DNA of 59,276 bases, taken from NCBI GenBank assembly GCA_012839295.1, contig DUNO01000012.1, positions 1 through 59,276 on the forward strand. Reading direction: 5' to 3'. Source of the stretch: Clostridiales bacterium. Its GTDB lineage: Bacteria; Bacillota; Clostridia; Lachnospirales; Lachnospiraceae. Under the pieces are notes generated by a model. It was not told the DNA's origin. It ran no database searches and saw nothing but the letters and a program-made list of their open reading frames with translations. Numbering within the stretch: position 1 is the stretch's first letter; each line of letters begins with the position of its first letter. Positions 15,642-48,893 of the stretch are shown here, one piece after another. The position numbers were made by a program, and so were the translations under genes.

Positions 15642-17015
15642 TTGGAAAATAAAAAGTATTTAAAGTGGTACCAGAAAGTGGCTTATGGCTCTGGTGATAT
15701 GGGCTCTAATTTTATGTATACCTTTGTATCTGCTTTTCTTTTGATCTACCTAACGGATACCATTGGCCTAAATGCCGGTATTGTTGGTACCCTGATGATG
15801 ATTTCCAAGATTTTTGACGGCTTTACTGATGTGGTCTTTGGTACCCTGATTGACAAGACCAAAAATAAGATGGGAAAGGCCAGACCCTGGATGTTCTGGT
15901 CAACCTTCCCCCTTGCAATCTGTGAGATATTGCTGTTTATGGTTCCCGGGATTTCAGCAAGCCTGCAGTATGCGTATTTCTTCATCATATACACCCTGTT
16001 AAACGCTATCTTTTATACGGCAAACAATATCTCCTATGCGTCTCTGACTGCGCTGATTACCAAGAACCCCAATGAACGGGTACAGCTGGGTTCCTTCCGG
16101 TTCATGTTTGCAATTGCGGCAGGTGTTATTATTTCCTCCATTACAGTGGGGCTGGTAGGAGCCTTCGGAGGCGGAGCTGCCGGCTGGCGCATGGTTGCGA
16201 TTATATTTTCCCTGCTGATGATACTCTTTAACATGATTAGCGTTCTGAGCGTTAAGGAAGTTTCGGAAGAGGGCGGAAAAGGGGAGGCTCCTGCGGCAAA
16301 GACAAATATCCTAAGCAATTTTAAATACCTGGTCTCAAACAGGTACTATTTAATGATCCTGCTGTACTATATCGTCATGTATACTATGTCAGGAATCACC
16401 GCCGGTATCGGTATCTATTTCTGCACCTATACATTAAATAATGCCGCTGTCCTTGGGCTTTTCACTATGACCAGCATGATTCCTATGATTGTGGGCCTGG
16501 CAATCACACCTTTCCTGGTAGCAAAATGGGGAATCTATAAGGTCAACCTCATCGGAAGCATAATTAGCCTTGTCTTTGGTATTCCTGGCATTATTGCCGG
16601 ATATGCGGGAAACATCCCTCTATTGCTGCTGTTTTCCTCAATCAGGGGACTTGGCATGAGCCCCATGATAGGCACATTAAATGCAGTCATTGCAGATACG
16701 GCTACTTACACCTACCATAAGGACGGCGTCCACCTGGAGGGAACCATGTACAGCTGCTCCTCCATGGGAATCAAGGTCGGAGGCGGCATCGGGAGTGCCC
16801 TCTGCGGATGGCTCCTGGCCATGAGCGGATATGACGGTAATGCGGCTGCGCAGCTGCCAAGTGCGATCAGTATGATCAATTTTATGTACCTGGTGATCCC
16901 GGTCATTGCCGTGGGAATTATTTTGTTCATCGTAGCCTCCCTCAATGTGGAGAAGGCAAACAAGAAGCTATTGGAGGAGAAATCCGGCACAAAGGGACAG
17001 GTTGCTGCATCCTGA
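15642..17015 (+). CDS. GPH-family glycoside:cation symporter
   Basis: The 457-residue protein has about 12 membrane segments and GPH/MelB-type signatures: YGSGDMGSNFMYTFVSAFLL near the start, FDGFTDVVFGTLIDKTKNKM with charged residues after helix 2, and a cytoplasmic loop containing ARPWMF. The family imports glycosides, pentosides or hexuronides with H+ or Na+. TTG start with AGGAGG about 8 bases upstream. It follows the GH2 gene by 26 bp and most likely supplies its substrate. Confidence 0.92.
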   Translation: MENKKYLKWYQKVAYGSGDMGSNFMYTFVSAFLLIYLTDTIGLNAGIVGTLMMISKIFDGFTDVVFGTLIDKTKNKMGKARPWMFWSTFPLAICEILLFMVPGISASLQYAYFFIIYTLLNAIFYTANNISYASLTALITKNPNERVQLGSFRFMFAIAAGVIISSITVGLVGAFGGGAAGWRMVAIIFSLLMILFNMISVLSVKEVSEEGGKGEAPAAKTNILSNFKYLVSNRYYLMILLYYIVMYTMSGITAGIGIYFCTYTLNNAAVLGLFTMTSMIPMIVGLAITPFLVAKWGIYKVNLIGSIISLVFGIPGIIAGYAGNIPLLLLFSSIRGLGMSPMIGTLNAVIADTATYTYHKDGVHLEGTMYSCSSMGIKVGGGIGSALCGWLLAMSGYDGNAAAQLPSAISMINFMYLVIPVIAVGIILFIVASLNVEKANKKLLEEKSGTKGQVAAS

Positions 17016-44431: not shown

Positions 44432-46141
44432 ATGGATAGAAGAATGAGACTGGCTGTTATAGGTATTGCATCTGCACTTACGTTAATCGCCATCATTATC
44501 ATAGCAGTGGTAGTTAAAAAGCTGACACCCAGTGATGAGGTGATGCCCCTTTCAGAGTATTACCAGGCAGAGGATAAAGAGGTTGTATTAATCCTTCAGG
44601 ATCAAATTTATTCGAAAAAAGGCCTGCTGATTAATGGCAGGATATACGTGGATTATGACACGGTGGTACAGGAATTTAACCGTCGGTTTTATTGGGATTA
44701 TAATGAAAATATCCTTACCTATACAACGCCTGATGAAATCATCAGGGCGGATGCGTCAAGAAGTACCTACACCGTAACAAAGAGTACCATTGAGACGGAG
44801 CGGGAATATGACTATCCGATTGCGGAGGTTTTTGTGGATAAGGTATATGTGTCCCTGGATTTTGTACAGCAATATTCCGACCTTACCTTCCAATATTATA
44901 AAGACCCTAACAGGGTAGTTATTAATTACCGCTGGGGAGATTATCTGTATACGGAGGTGTCCAAGGCAACACAGCTGCGCTATGAGCCAAATATCAAAAG
45001 CCCTATTTTAGCGGAGCTTCCGGTAGGTACGAGCCTGGTATATGTGGACACGGAGGAAGCACCGGAGAAGGGCTTTGTTAAGGTCATGACAGTGGATGGC
45101 ATTAAGGGCTATGTGAAAAAGAAGGCGACGAAGGAGGCTGGCTATAAGACCCTGGAAAGCTCTTACCGGGAGCCGGAATACTCAGCCCAGTCCAGGTCGA
45201 AAAAAATAAATCTTGTCTTCCATCAGGTATTTAACCAGGATGCTAATGGAAGGCTGGAGGAGCTGATTAGCAGTACGAAGGGCGTGAATGTCGTATCCCC
45301 CACCTGGTTTAGCATTGAGGACGTATCGGGAACAATCTCTTCCCTGGCTTCCGAGCGGTATGTCAGCCGTGCAAATACCCTGGGACTGGAAGTATGGGCG
45401 CTGGTCAGTGACTTTAATGAGGAGGTCAATATGAAGGAGCTCCTTACCTATACCTCCCGCAGGGACACCCTTTCCAATGCGCTGATTGAAAAAGCCCTGG
45501 CCTATAAATTAAACGGAATCAATATAGACTTTGAAAAGATCCCATCGGATGCCGGTGTGGACTATATCCAGTTCCTCCGTGAGCTGTCCGTAAAGTGCAG
45601 GAATAACGGTATTGTATTATCCGTGGATAATTATGTCCCCTCTCCTTATACGGAGTATTATGACAGGGAAGAGCAGGGAAAGATAGTGGATTATCTTATT
45701 ACCATGGCCTATGACGAGCACCATGGTAATTCGGAGCAGGCAGGCCCTGTATCATCCATTGGCTTTGTGAAGGATGCGGTAGAAAACATCCTAAAAGAGG
45801 TTCCCAAGGAAAAGGTCATTATTGCAATTCCATTTTACACAAGGCTGTGGAAGGAAGGTGCGGATGGCGGCCTGTCTTCTGAAACCTATGCAATGTCACC
45901 GGCAGCAGCCCTGATAGAAAATAGCGGAGTTAAAGCAAAATGGGATGATGCGAGCGGCTGTTATTACATTGAATATACGAAGGAGGATGGAACCTATAAA
46001 ATGTGGCAGGAGGAGGACAAATCCATTGAGGAAAAGATGAAGGTCATCTACAATGCCAATGTGGCCGGTGTTGCAGAGTGGAAATTAGGGCTGGAGAATC
46101 CCAGCGTATGGAATGTCATCCTGCGGTACCTGAACCAATAA
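44432..46141 (+). CDS. Membrane-anchored GH18 domain protein (spore-germination/cell-wall hydrolase type)
   Basis: The 569-residue protein has an N-terminal membrane helix (residues ~7-28) that anchors it outside the cell. Next comes a copper-amine-oxidase-N-like fold (GLLINGRIYVDYDTV; KVYVSLDFVQQYS), then an SH3-type domain (LRYEPNIKSPILAELPVGTS), then a GH18 barrel from about residue 255. The GH18 catalytic region reads GINIDFEKI, with Asp and the acid Glu, and later TMAYDEHH. It resembles YaaH/SleL-type N-acetylglucosaminidases that act on peptidoglycan or cortex. ATG start with GGAGGA 8 bases upstream. A cell-wall amidase follows. Confidence 0.86.
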   Translation: MDRRMRLAVIGIASALTLIAIIIIAVVVKKLTPSDEVMPLSEYYQAEDKEVVLILQDQIYSKKGLLINGRIYVDYDTVVQEFNRRFYWDYNENILTYTTPDEIIRADASRSTYTVTKSTIETEREYDYPIAEVFVDKVYVSLDFVQQYSDLTFQYYKDPNRVVINYRWGDYLYTEVSKATQLRYEPNIKSPILAELPVGTSLVYVDTEEAPEKGFVKVMTVDGIKGYVKKKATKEAGYKTLESSYREPEYSAQSRSKKINLVFHQVFNQDANGRLEELISSTKGVNVVSPTWFSIEDVSGTISSLASERYVSRANTLGLEVWALVSDFNEEVNMKELLTYTSRRDTLSNALIEKALAYKLNGINIDFEKIPSDAGVDYIQFLRELSVKCRNNGIVLSVDNYVPSPYTEYYDREEQGKIVDYLITMAYDEHHGNSEQAGPVSSIGFVKDAVENILKEVPKEKVIIAIPFYTRLWKEGADGGLSSETYAMSPAAALIENSGVKAKWDDASGCYYIEYTKEDGTYKMWQEEDKSIEEKMKVIYNANVAGVAEWKLGLENPSVWNVILRYLNQ

Positions 46142-46181
46142 GGGTGAAAGAAAAACAAATAATAAACGAAGGAAGTCCCGG

Positions 46182-46229
46182 GTCCATGCCGGCACTTACA
46201 TGGCATTTTGTGGGCTAAAAGGCATGGAC
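46182..46229 (+). promoter_or_regulatory. Start-codon-pairing helix, cassette copy 1
   Basis: GTCCATGCC (46182-46190) pairs perfectly with GGCATGGAC (46221-46229). The left arm contains the start codon of the 10-residue peptide, the right arm the start codon of the next small frame. Confidence 0.6.
46186..46218 (+). CDS. Predicted 10-residue leader peptide, cassette copy 1
   Basis: The frame reads MPALTWHFVG and stops at TAA. GAAGGAAG lies about 8 bases upstream as a plausible ribosome site. The peptide matches MQALSWQFVW at 48392 in length, stop codon and six identical residues plus a Thr/Ser exchange, in an otherwise non-coding gap. Six nucleotides after the stop, ATGGACATAA.TATG follows in both copies. 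I infer a leader peptide whose translation opens the paired start codon of the next frame; no known leader peptide is recognised. Confidence 0.55.
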   Translation: MPALTWHFVG

Positions 46230-46325
46230 ATAAATATGGGTGGACGGGCAACTCTTACAATAGAATCAGCGCCACAACAGCATACACTGACGGGCAGTAG
46301 AATAGGACATACTATTCCTTCATAG
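46224..46325 (+). CDS. Small open frame downstream of leader cassette copy 1 (33 residues)
   Basis: ATG at 46224 opens MDINMGGRATLTIESAPQQH and ends at TAG 46323-46325, 34 bases before the amidase gene. The MDI-M start equals the start of the ywlE frame after cassette copy 2 (MDITM), which suggests both began as the same cassette joined to different genes. No family is recognised; it may be a remnant of a lost coding gene. Confidence 0.3.
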   Translation: MDINMGGRATLTIESAPQQHTLTGSRIGHTIPS

Positions 46326-46359
46326 AATATAAGGAATCTGGAAGTCAGGTGCATGGACA

Positions 46360-47100
46360 ATGAAAAAATATTTCAGCATCATTTTCCTGTTTCTTATCCT
46401 TTGTGCCAGTATCCTAACCTCGGAGCGGGCCATCAGGACTATGAGACATTTCTCATTCTGGGAAGAAGAACCTGAAGATAAGAATGTTACCATTGTAATT
46501 GACCCCGGACACGGCGGGAGGGATCCCGGAAAAGTCGGGGTCAATAATTGCTTGGAGAAGGATATTAACTTAAGTATTTCGCGTATATTGAAGGAAATGC
46601 TGGAGCAGGAAGGGATCACCGTCATTATGACAAGGGAAGAGGATGTAGGACTATATTCCGAGGAGGATTCCAATAAGAAACGGGCCGATTTGAATAACCG
46701 GGTTTCCATCATTAATTCCAGCGGGGCCGACCTGGCTGTCAGCATCCATCAGAATAGCTTTGGTGAAGGCTATGTTAAGGGAGCCCAGGTGTTCTACTAT
46801 GCAAAATCGGAGCAGGGCCGGAAGCTGGCGGAGCTGATGCAGGGTAGGATTAAAGAAACCATAGGGGACGACAACCACCGTAAAGCGAAAGCAAATGATA
46901 ATTATTATATGATAACAAAAACCACCTGTCCTTTGGTTATTGTGGAATGCGGCTATCTGTCAAACCCGGAGGAAGCGGAGCTTCTTTTAAAGGAGGAATA
47001 CCAGAAGAAAATGGCTGAGGGGATCTGTAAGTCCCTGCTGGAGTACATAGAAGCGAACCACCTGGGGGAAGAAGCTAAAAAAGTGACCCACCGCATGTGA
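46360..47100 (+). CDS. N-acetylmuramoyl-L-alanine amidase (amidase_3, CwlD-like)
   Basis: The 246-residue protein has an N-terminal membrane or signal helix (KYFSIIFLFLILCASIL) and a single amidase_3 domain. Zinc ligands are in VIDPGHGGRDPG (His), LEKDINL (Glu) and SIHQNSF (His), with the catalytic Glu in VECGYLSNPEEAE. It cuts the bond between muramic acid and L-alanine in peptidoglycan. Length and the lack of binding repeats resemble CwlD, the enzyme that makes muramic lactam in spore cortex, but a vegetative role is possible. No clear ribosome site precedes the ATG; GCATGGACA directly upstream repeats the box found in the leader cassettes. Confidence 0.85.
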   Translation: MKKYFSIIFLFLILCASILTSERAIRTMRHFSFWEEEPEDKNVTIVIDPGHGGRDPGKVGVNNCLEKDINLSISRILKEMLEQEGITVIMTREEDVGLYSEEDSNKKRADLNNRVSIINSSGADLAVSIHQNSFGEGYVKGAQVFYYAKSEQGRKLAELMQGRIKETIGDDNHRKAKANDNYYMITKTTCPLVIVECGYLSNPEEAELLLKEEYQKKMAEGICKSLLEYIEANHLGEEAKKVTHRM

Positions 47101-48310: not shown

Positions 48311-48388
48311 TGGTATATGTGGTGGGGTATTCTTGTATTGAAGGTAAGGTTGAAAGAAATAAAAGTGCTAGACGAAGGGAGGACCGGA

Positions 48389-48433
48389 TCCATGCAAGCA
48401 CTTTCGTGGCAATTTGTGTGGTAAATGCATGGA
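48389..48433 (+). promoter_or_regulatory. Start-codon-pairing helix, cassette copy 2
   Basis: TCCATGCA (48389-48396) pairs perfectly with TGCATGGA (48426-48433). Against copy 1, the C-G pair at the inner end has changed to A-T, a compensatory change that keeps the helix. Left and right arms again hold the two start codons. Confidence 0.6.
48392..48424 (+). CDS. Predicted 10-residue leader peptide of ywlE, cassette copy 2
   Basis: GAAGGGAGG lies about 9 bases before the ATG, a strong ribosome site. The frame reads MQALSWQFVW and stops at TAA (48422-48424), 4 bases before the ATG of ywlE. The ywlE start itself has no ribosome site, so ribosomes ending on this frame probably reinitiate there. 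Residues Ala3, Leu4, Trp6, Phe8 and Val9 are shared with copy 1. Confidence 0.6.
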   Translation: MQALSWQFVW

Positions 48434-48893
48434 CATAACTATGAAGAGATATCAGAAGCTTATATTCGTTTGTACCGGGAACACCTGCAGAAGCCCAATG
48501 GCAGAGGCAATCTATAAAAACCTGGAAAAGGTCAGTGATATGAAGGTATGCTCCAGGGGTCTGGTAGTGCTTTTTGCAGAACCCTTGAACCCTAAGGCGG
48601 AGATTGTTTTAAAAAAGCATGACCTGGAGCTGACTAACCATATGGCAAAAGGGTTAAGGGCATCCGACCTGGAAGAGGACATTCTTATACTTACTATGAC
48701 TGCAAGCCAAAAAAAGAAAGTACAGGAGCTTTATCCGGAAGTCAAGGATGTATACACCATAAAGGAATTTGCGGGAGAAATCGGTGATGTTGTAGATCCT
48801 TACGGCGGTACGCTGATGGATTATGAGGAGTGTTATATTGAATTGGGACGCCTTGTGAAAAAGACGGTCTATAAATTAAACGAGGATATATAA
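48429..48893 (+). CDS. ywlE: Low-molecular-weight protein phosphatase, probable protein-arginine phosphatase YwlE
   Basis: The 154-residue protein has the LMW phosphatase loop VCTGNTCRSPMAEAI near its start and the general-acid Asp in GDVVDPYGG. The loop has Thr (CTGNT) where tyrosine phosphatases have Ile/Leu; this Thr is what makes Bacillus YwlE prefer phosphoarginine. The neighbours sua5/ywlC and rpiB/ywlF match the YwlE locus. YwlE reverses McsB arginine phosphorylation, which tags proteins for ClpCP; mecA lies in the same window. The start at 48429 follows the leader peptide stop by 4 bases; ATG 48441 is an alternative. Neither has its own ribosome site. Confidence 0.88.
   Translation: MDITMKRYQKLIFVCTGNTCRSPMAEAIYKNLEKVSDMKVCSRGLVVLFAEPLNPKAEIVLKKHDLELTNHMAKGLRASDLEEDILILTMTASQKKKVQELYPEVKDVYTIKEFAGEIGDVVDPYGGTLMDYEECYIELGRLVKKTVYKLNEDI

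Follow-up and report, generated by a model that had tools for sequence, protein, structure and literature searches.

We analysed a 59,276-nucleotide stretch of DNA from a Clostridiales bacterium (contig DUNO01000012.1 of assembly GCA_012839295.1), hereafter the window, in which two intergenic sites are built to the same plan. A first-pass annotation had described each of them as a ribosome-binding site followed by a 10-codon frame and, a few bases on, a second start codon, with the surroundings of the two starts pairing. This plan is indeed present at both sites, with the first ATG at 46186 (MPALTWHFVG, then a stop) and at 48392 (MQALSWQFVW, then a stop). The arms TCCATGC and GCATGGA occur at both, and the next pair inward is C-G at the first site and A-T at the second, which is the compensatory change that had been pointed out. 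The first site adjoins the stop codon (46139–46141) of an upstream glycosyl hydrolase 18 gene (Pfam Glyco_hydro_18). The features of the two sites, each of which holds a copy of one short element, are as follows (SD, Shine–Dalgarno sequence).

46142–46233, + strand: element copy 1, 92 nt, GGGTGAAAG...CATGGACATAA (sequence; covariance-model match G000:C11:46124-46244, E 6.7e-18)
46168–46176, + strand: weak internal SD of copy 1, GAAGGAAGT, family consensus GAAGGGGGGA (anti-SD duplex –5.6 kcal/mol; L015)
46182–46190, + strand: 5' arm of the stem in copy 1, GTCCATGCC, containing the first ATG (46186) (pairs with 46221–46229; covariation)
46221–46229, + strand: 3' arm of the stem in copy 1, GGCATGGAC (pairing; covariation)
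46236–46325, + strand: 29-codon frame at the fixed position, 2 nt behind copy 1; no long gene (L015)
48340–48344, + strand: the phosphatase gene's own SD, now GAAGG, split from the start codon by the insertion; GGAGG in the congener (empty site in G012)
48348–48438, + strand: element copy 2, 91 nt, GGTTGAAAG...CATGGACATAA (empty site in G012; covariance-model match E 3.7e-20)
48377–48382, + strand: internal SD of copy 2, GGGAGG, 58 nt ahead of the gene's ATG (sequence)
48389–48396, + strand: 5' arm of the stem in copy 2, TCCATGCA, containing the first ATG (48392) (pairing and covariation; stem probability only 0.08 with flanks)
48426–48433, + strand: 3' arm of the stem in copy 2, TGCATGGA (pairing; covariation)
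48441–48893, + strand: low-molecular-weight phosphotyrosine phosphatase family gene behind copy 2 (Pfam LMWPc, 94.5 bits, cut-off 23.2)

The phosphatase gene, whose NCBIfam matches fall below cut-off, starts at the ATG 2 nt behind copy 2, and the match to its relatives begins at the same codon. Behind copy 1 the second frame has 33 codons when read from ATGGAC, or 29 when read from the ATG at 46236. The earlier suggestion that copy 1 may have lost its gene is a fair one, since what follows this copy is the 29-codon frame and the copy has a weak internal SD. Control of the amidase gene cwlD by copy 1, which had also been suggested, is unsupported: the cwlD start lies 127 nt behind the element, and from 46290 onward the window aligns to a congener (G012) that is without the element. 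Copy 1 is missing between the same two genes in this congener, and the cut could not be placed in the diverged flanks. The start of cwlD (window 46349–46362) reads GTGCATGGACAATG and that of the congener GTGCATGGACCATG; it resembles the 3' end of the element, yet the congener has no element here. Rfam gave no gathering match in the window and, at E ≤ 1 over four loci, only two weak mir-17 matches (L259:885–959) away from the element. A known Rfam RNA family was rejected because the curated models gave no match on the element.

It is nearly certain that the two sites are members of an interspersed family of mobile elements. In the genome that carries the window (G000; 6.36 Mb, 82 contigs), the 13-mer TGCATGGACATAA with at most one mismatch gave 54 matches versus 6 for a reversed control, and a pattern for the 5' half gave 71 versus 1. 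A covariance model built from 33 copies, with E-values that are rough, gave 93 matches at E ≤ 1. Removing the five weakest and one overlapping match left 87 own copies, including the middle copy of a tandem array on contig C14. What had been read as one duplicated cassette is better described as two separate insertions of a mobile element present in about 87 copies. The element is 91–92 nt long in 39 of these and 109–114 nt in 23; the longer form carries a 20-nt unit once or more near the 3' end, before the 3' arm, and the short form runs approximately GGTTGAAAGAAATAAAATTAATAAACGAAGGGAGGACCGGGTCCATGCCAGCACTTTCATGGC-ATTTGTGCGGTA, then GGGCATGGACATAA. Both ends are defined by the array on C14, which has a 92-nt period. 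By eye, the ends GGTTGAAAG and CATGGACATAA are not complementary, and there are no terminal inverted repeats. The hairpin ends 4 nt short of the 3' end.

An autonomous parent was rejected: all matches to the 5' half lie inside known copies except C7:174086 and C55:147963, which were judged to be chance. A lone 3' end at C2:100244 (L005) was also discarded as a parent; no transposase-like frame is evident there, and the frame behind it is one that we take to be sugar-isomerase-like. The Y1 transposase model (PF01797) had no match in the own genome, an assembly that is 97.9% complete, and three in G012. In the literature searched, at the level of titles and abstract openings, we found no description of such an element, and within it the family is undescribed.

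Several other repeats were seen along the way. Loops much enlarged by repeated units of ~20–40 nt between the stem arms occur in the third copy of L092 and in L100 and L029. In 6 of 94 copies (L057, L029, L101, L022, L107, and L110) the element is directly adjoined at its 5' end by a second palindromic repeat (TGCTGCC ... GCAGCA core), with a flank ending in CGGGAA or CGGGAG in five of the six. On own contig C40 a repeat of ~165 nt (L180:8014–8178) with a long hairpin inside has about 31 matches in G012 among those listed. A further repeat of ~105 nt, with TTATCAGAAGTT-type arms and a GGCGC hairpin (L179:500–604, L180:16707–16826, and L181 at about 16345–16455), also has many matches in G012.

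We also looked at how widely the element is distributed. Among 41 genomes searched with model R1, the carriers were the own genome and G012 (7 copies), and no element was found at E ≤ 0.01 in the 39 other relatives. Across 391 genomes of the class, 12 (own included), belonging to 6 of 223 genera, carry it at E ≤ 0.001; both surveys used stricter filters that lose weak matches, and the larger one scored at most 10 candidates per genome. The distribution in Clostridia is patchy. Carriers include Ruminiclostridium sufflavum (28 matches), Lutispora sp. (20), R. hungatei (18), the uncultured Clostridia genome CALGKJ (10), and Anaerocolumna aminovalerica (1), and one element locus is common to G012 (L081) and Herbinix sp. 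isolate L_E1_T20_B_bin.8 (L164), an indication that the window belongs to this genus. Two of 17 pattern matches (L157 and L165) have nothing of the rest of the element and were rejected as members. One IMG/VR contig carries a member (L327:8440–8620). This member precedes a frame reading MAGGTFDKRIGKVRSG, which to us resembles a tail sheath protein, and the contig is a possible carrier between hosts. One own copy searched against phage and plasmid records matched nothing at E ≤ 0.01, and a strict pattern for the inner sequence found nothing in viral contigs.

The element is regarded as an insertion, and as mobile, because orthologous sites are empty in G012. Five such sites could be placed: the Sua5–phosphatase junction, a murG-family gene, and three on contig C77. 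At the Sua5–phosphatase junction G012 reads GGAGGTAA^CTATGG, with the caret at the cut, where the window has the 91-nt element. Three of the five empty sites are identical over at least 5 bases ahead of the cut and over the ATG-side bases after it; the murG-family site is of equal length with several substitutions, and the C77:122519 site differs in length by two bases. The empty targets read TAA^, AAT^, TAA^, TAA^, and AAA^, so that the As ahead of the element belong to the target in four of the five, and a possible target repeat is 2–3 nt at most. Of seven other own sites compared with G012, six aligned without a clear element and one gave no result, with cuts that could not be placed in diverged flanks. 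At the L180:2159 site G012 has a short stretch that is a possible remnant of the element. One site is occupied in both genomes: the element lies ahead of an NADH-dependent hydrogenase or NuoG-like gene in L069 and in L082, two loci that were paired by eye.

The insertions occur at a particular place. The insertion site is AA^NNATG on the coding strand, which places the element between the SD of a gene and its start codon. An ATG lies exactly 2 nt behind the element in 69 of the 87 own copies, and 64 of these 69 open a frame of at least 92 codons, six of which run to the end of the locus sequence. The other genomes supplied 51 rows from loci drawn from 77 matches (7 rows from G012; 50 distinct sites, one being present twice); here the ATG is at the fixed place in 47 and at least 60 codons are open in 39. 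AA precedes the insertion in 63 of 87 own copies versus 23 of 184 native SD-bearing starts. An SD motif was recognised in the 5' flank of 52 of the 69 ATG-facing own copies, and in 38 of these 52 it would sit 5–10 nt from the ATG without the element. The remaining 17, tilS among them, have no recognised SD motif upstream. The mean anti-SD energy of the 5' flank is –6.6 versus –5.0 when shuffled.

Behind the element lie mutually unrelated genes. Their products, 64 proteins, have matches to 114 Pfam families; the commonest of these (25 families listed) has five members, and no shared pathway was found among the proteins with Pfam. They include TilS, a murG-family protein, RapZ, TrmB, and WecB. 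TilS and murG are normally needed for growth, and the murG-family copy here would presumably be needed too. Some copies also terminate an open frame that runs in from upstream, by a stop codon located at the element's beginning or within it. This happens in 14 of the 87 own copies for frames of 100 codons or more, and the murG-family copy, where the closed frame has 93 codons, brings the total to 15. At the empty murG-family site in G012, inspection by eye shows the upstream frame closing in the overlap GCATGA. A gene whose SD and ATG are separated by an insert should fall silent; dozens of inserts are found at this place, including those before tilS and the murG-family gene. So many tolerated inserts suggest a portable means of keeping a gene translated across the insert.

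A candidate for part of this means is the internal SD. All 61 gene-facing own copies scored have an internal SD with an anti-SD energy of –7 or below, three others being omitted where the 5' arm was not recognised. The same holds in G012 (5 of 5), CALGKJ (8 of 8), Lutispora (8 of 8), R. sufflavum (5 of 5), G076 (2 of 2), and G358 (1 of 1), so that every lineage scored has a strong internal SD except R. hungatei. In R. hungatei six of seven scored copies are without one; an SD-like run just ahead of the 3' arm is present in six of seven, and a strong native SD lies upstream in four of seven. Of 86 own copies scored, the 64 whose fixed place opens a frame of at least 60 codons have a mean internal SD energy of –10.35 kcal/mol versus –7.7 for the 22 without (p 2.6e-5), and the difference persists with divergence as a covariate (permutation p 1e-4). 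In several of the 22 the start codon lies a few bases further on, and a strong SD is mostly kept. The SD core is 5 or 6 nt from the stem in 45 of 59 own copies and in most others too (R. hungatei has the core in one of seven), and the stem is 6–7 nt from the gene's ATG. Judged from these sequences, the internal SD appears to be used.

The stem itself is supported by covariation. Among 93 aligned copies (86 own and 7 from G012), 96.7% of stem cells pair. Cells in which both bases have changed number 23 versus 4.0 ± 1.8 in shuffled alignments, with none of 500 shuffles reaching 23, and 27 versus 6.5 expected in the 51 rows from other genomes; these counts are guides rather than probabilities, related copies not being independent. 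The stem cells include 38 G.U, 9 A.C, and 15 other mismatches. The excess of G.U over A.C indicates that the sense strand folds; folding of the opposite strand would reverse the two. Stem mismatches per copy are 0.27 without a gene at the fixed place and 0.30 with one (p 0.95), and therefore the stem could serve movement and not translation. Predicted stem probability is above 0.5 in 39 of 59 gene-facing own copies (the prediction left out five of 64), 0.08 in window copy 2, and 0.0 in the murG-family copy. The mean predicted probability that the gene's ATG is unpaired is only 0.43. Folded alone, the window copies did not have energies below those of shuffles (z –1.23 and 0.09).

The reading we favour, with a probability of roughly 0.6, is a non-autonomous mobile element with a putative split ribosome-binding site, in which a hairpin would bridge the SD to the ATG. 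The 30S subunit would bind the internal SD carried by the element. The stem TCCATGC/GCATGGA would loop out about 45–70 nt in most copies, hide the decoy ATG within its 5' arm, and bring the gene's ATG to about 11–13 nt from the internal SD, this being the distance left after folding from the 5–6 nt before the stem and the 6–7 nt behind it. The gene would stay translatable because the element brings its own split site, and stop codons of the element that close upstream frames may let it sit even in overlapping gene junctions. We consider a role as a split ribosome-binding site more probable than not. A spacing of 11–13 nt is long and counts against bridging, as do the SDs of R. hungatei, the folding scores, and the equal decay of stems with and without a gene. 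Because these last three results do not fit, bridging is something that we infer.

The residues Ala3, Leu4, Trp6, Phe8, and Val9 are common to both window copies, and the first-pass annotation had proposed from this a conserved leader peptide controlling the next gene, with selection on peptide and helix together. The helix part is borne out by the covariation over the aligned copies. The peptide part is contradicted by the frames and codon positions. Among the 87 own copies the frame is not kept: the expected ATG is missing in five, the frame is 10 codons long in 24, and in the rest the first frame spans between 5 and 49 codons, apart from two that stay open for at least 200 (for a few decayed copies, the script picked an ATG other than that of the stem). 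The motif M-x-A-L-[ST]-W-x-F-V, which was expected to recur in further copies, fits 17 of the 87. Substitutions are flat over codon positions 1, 2, and 3 (118, 140, and 137 in 61 copies of the expected length), and in other genera there is a 4-codon frame (L156 and L171) or a different peptide (L159). The unrelated genes behind the copies also speak against a leader that controls the next gene. The shared residues reflect the DNA consensus of the family; a repeat can mimic a leader peptide when just two copies are compared. A leader peptide or attenuator is ruled out by the variable frames and flat codon positions of the other copies, and we give a conserved leader almost no weight.

The main rival of bridging is reinitiation via the first ATG. 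Using the internal SD, ribosomes would start at the ATG of the 5' arm, translate the short frame, terminate, and begin again at the ATG of the gene. On this view, selection on the internal SD would act through the short frame, which fits the retention of this SD in gene-facing copies; 82 of 87 copies have an ATG where one is expected or close by, and many frames stop 2–37 nt ahead of the gene's ATG. However, frame length varies widely and the stop ranges from 119 nt before to more than 500 nt after that ATG, and four of the five copies without a first ATG face frames of at least 60 codons. The equal change at codon positions and the 4-codon frames or other peptides of other genera count against it as well, and we consider reinitiation unlikely. 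Another explanation is that the element is a plain selfish repeat, with a hairpin that serves mobility through recognition of single strands by an enzyme and with genes expressed despite the insert via weak or native SDs. In favour of this, copies lacking a gene at the fixed place have stems no less intact than the others, and the scored R. hungatei copies are mostly without a strong internal SD (6 of 7) and often have a strong native one (4 of 7). HUH-type elements have no terminal inverted repeats and a subterminal hairpin, which the ends of the element recall. By contrast, a plain repeat does not explain why weakening of the internal SD is confined to copies with no gene start at the fixed place, or how the 17 of 69 ATG-facing copies with no recognised upstream SD motif, tilS included, would be tolerated. 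The Y1 transposase, moreover, was not found in the own genome. This explanation too is improbable in our judgement, and we retain the bridging element with its split site as the preferred reading.

A wider possibility, which we put forward tentatively and hold to be somewhat doubtful, is that this is a class of elements directed at translation-initiation sites (behind the SD and 2 bases before the ATG), which may survive, even in front of genes that growth normally requires, by substituting a folded, split site for the host ribosome-binding site. If true, the targeting machinery would have to read translation start sites, and we know of no transposition system that does so in such a way. It raises the questions of which enzyme might choose sites by SD and start codon, and of how a ribosome might bridge a hairpin of 45–70 nt.

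As a comparison, MITEs and REP-type repeats are, like the element, short, non-coding, and present in many copies, with a hairpin, no enzyme of their own, and empty sites in a relative. Unlike them, the element has no terminal inverted repeats, a target repeat of 2–3 nt at most, and a site tied to AA^NNATG behind an SD. The absence of inverted repeats, the subterminal hairpin, and the AA before 63 of 87 insertions may recall IS200/IS605-type (Y1) elements, whose known insertion pattern does not include an ATG at 2 nt; the own genome, as noted, has no Y1 transposase. Mitochondrial genes of Magnusiomyces capitatus carry mobile insert blocks named byps. Such blocks occur at 81 positions and their effect is cancelled by the ribosome (PMC5009743), and the element is similar in having many short inserts whose effect on genes is, as proposed here, cancelled by the ribosome. 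Byps differ in lying inside coding frames, where they are skipped in elongation, whereas the element lies before the start codon and the step is initiation. A close parallel in mechanism is in phage T4, where folding shortens the SD-to-start distance from 22 to 5 nt in gene 38 and from 27 to 11 nt in gene 25 (PMC3014915). As with the element, a far SD is brought nearer by a foldable stretch between, and the 11 nt of gene 25 is comparable with the ~11–13 nt proposed here (PMC3014915). Genes 38 and 25 are single sites of one gene each, whereas the element sits before dozens of unrelated genes, with ~45–70 nt that would be looped out.
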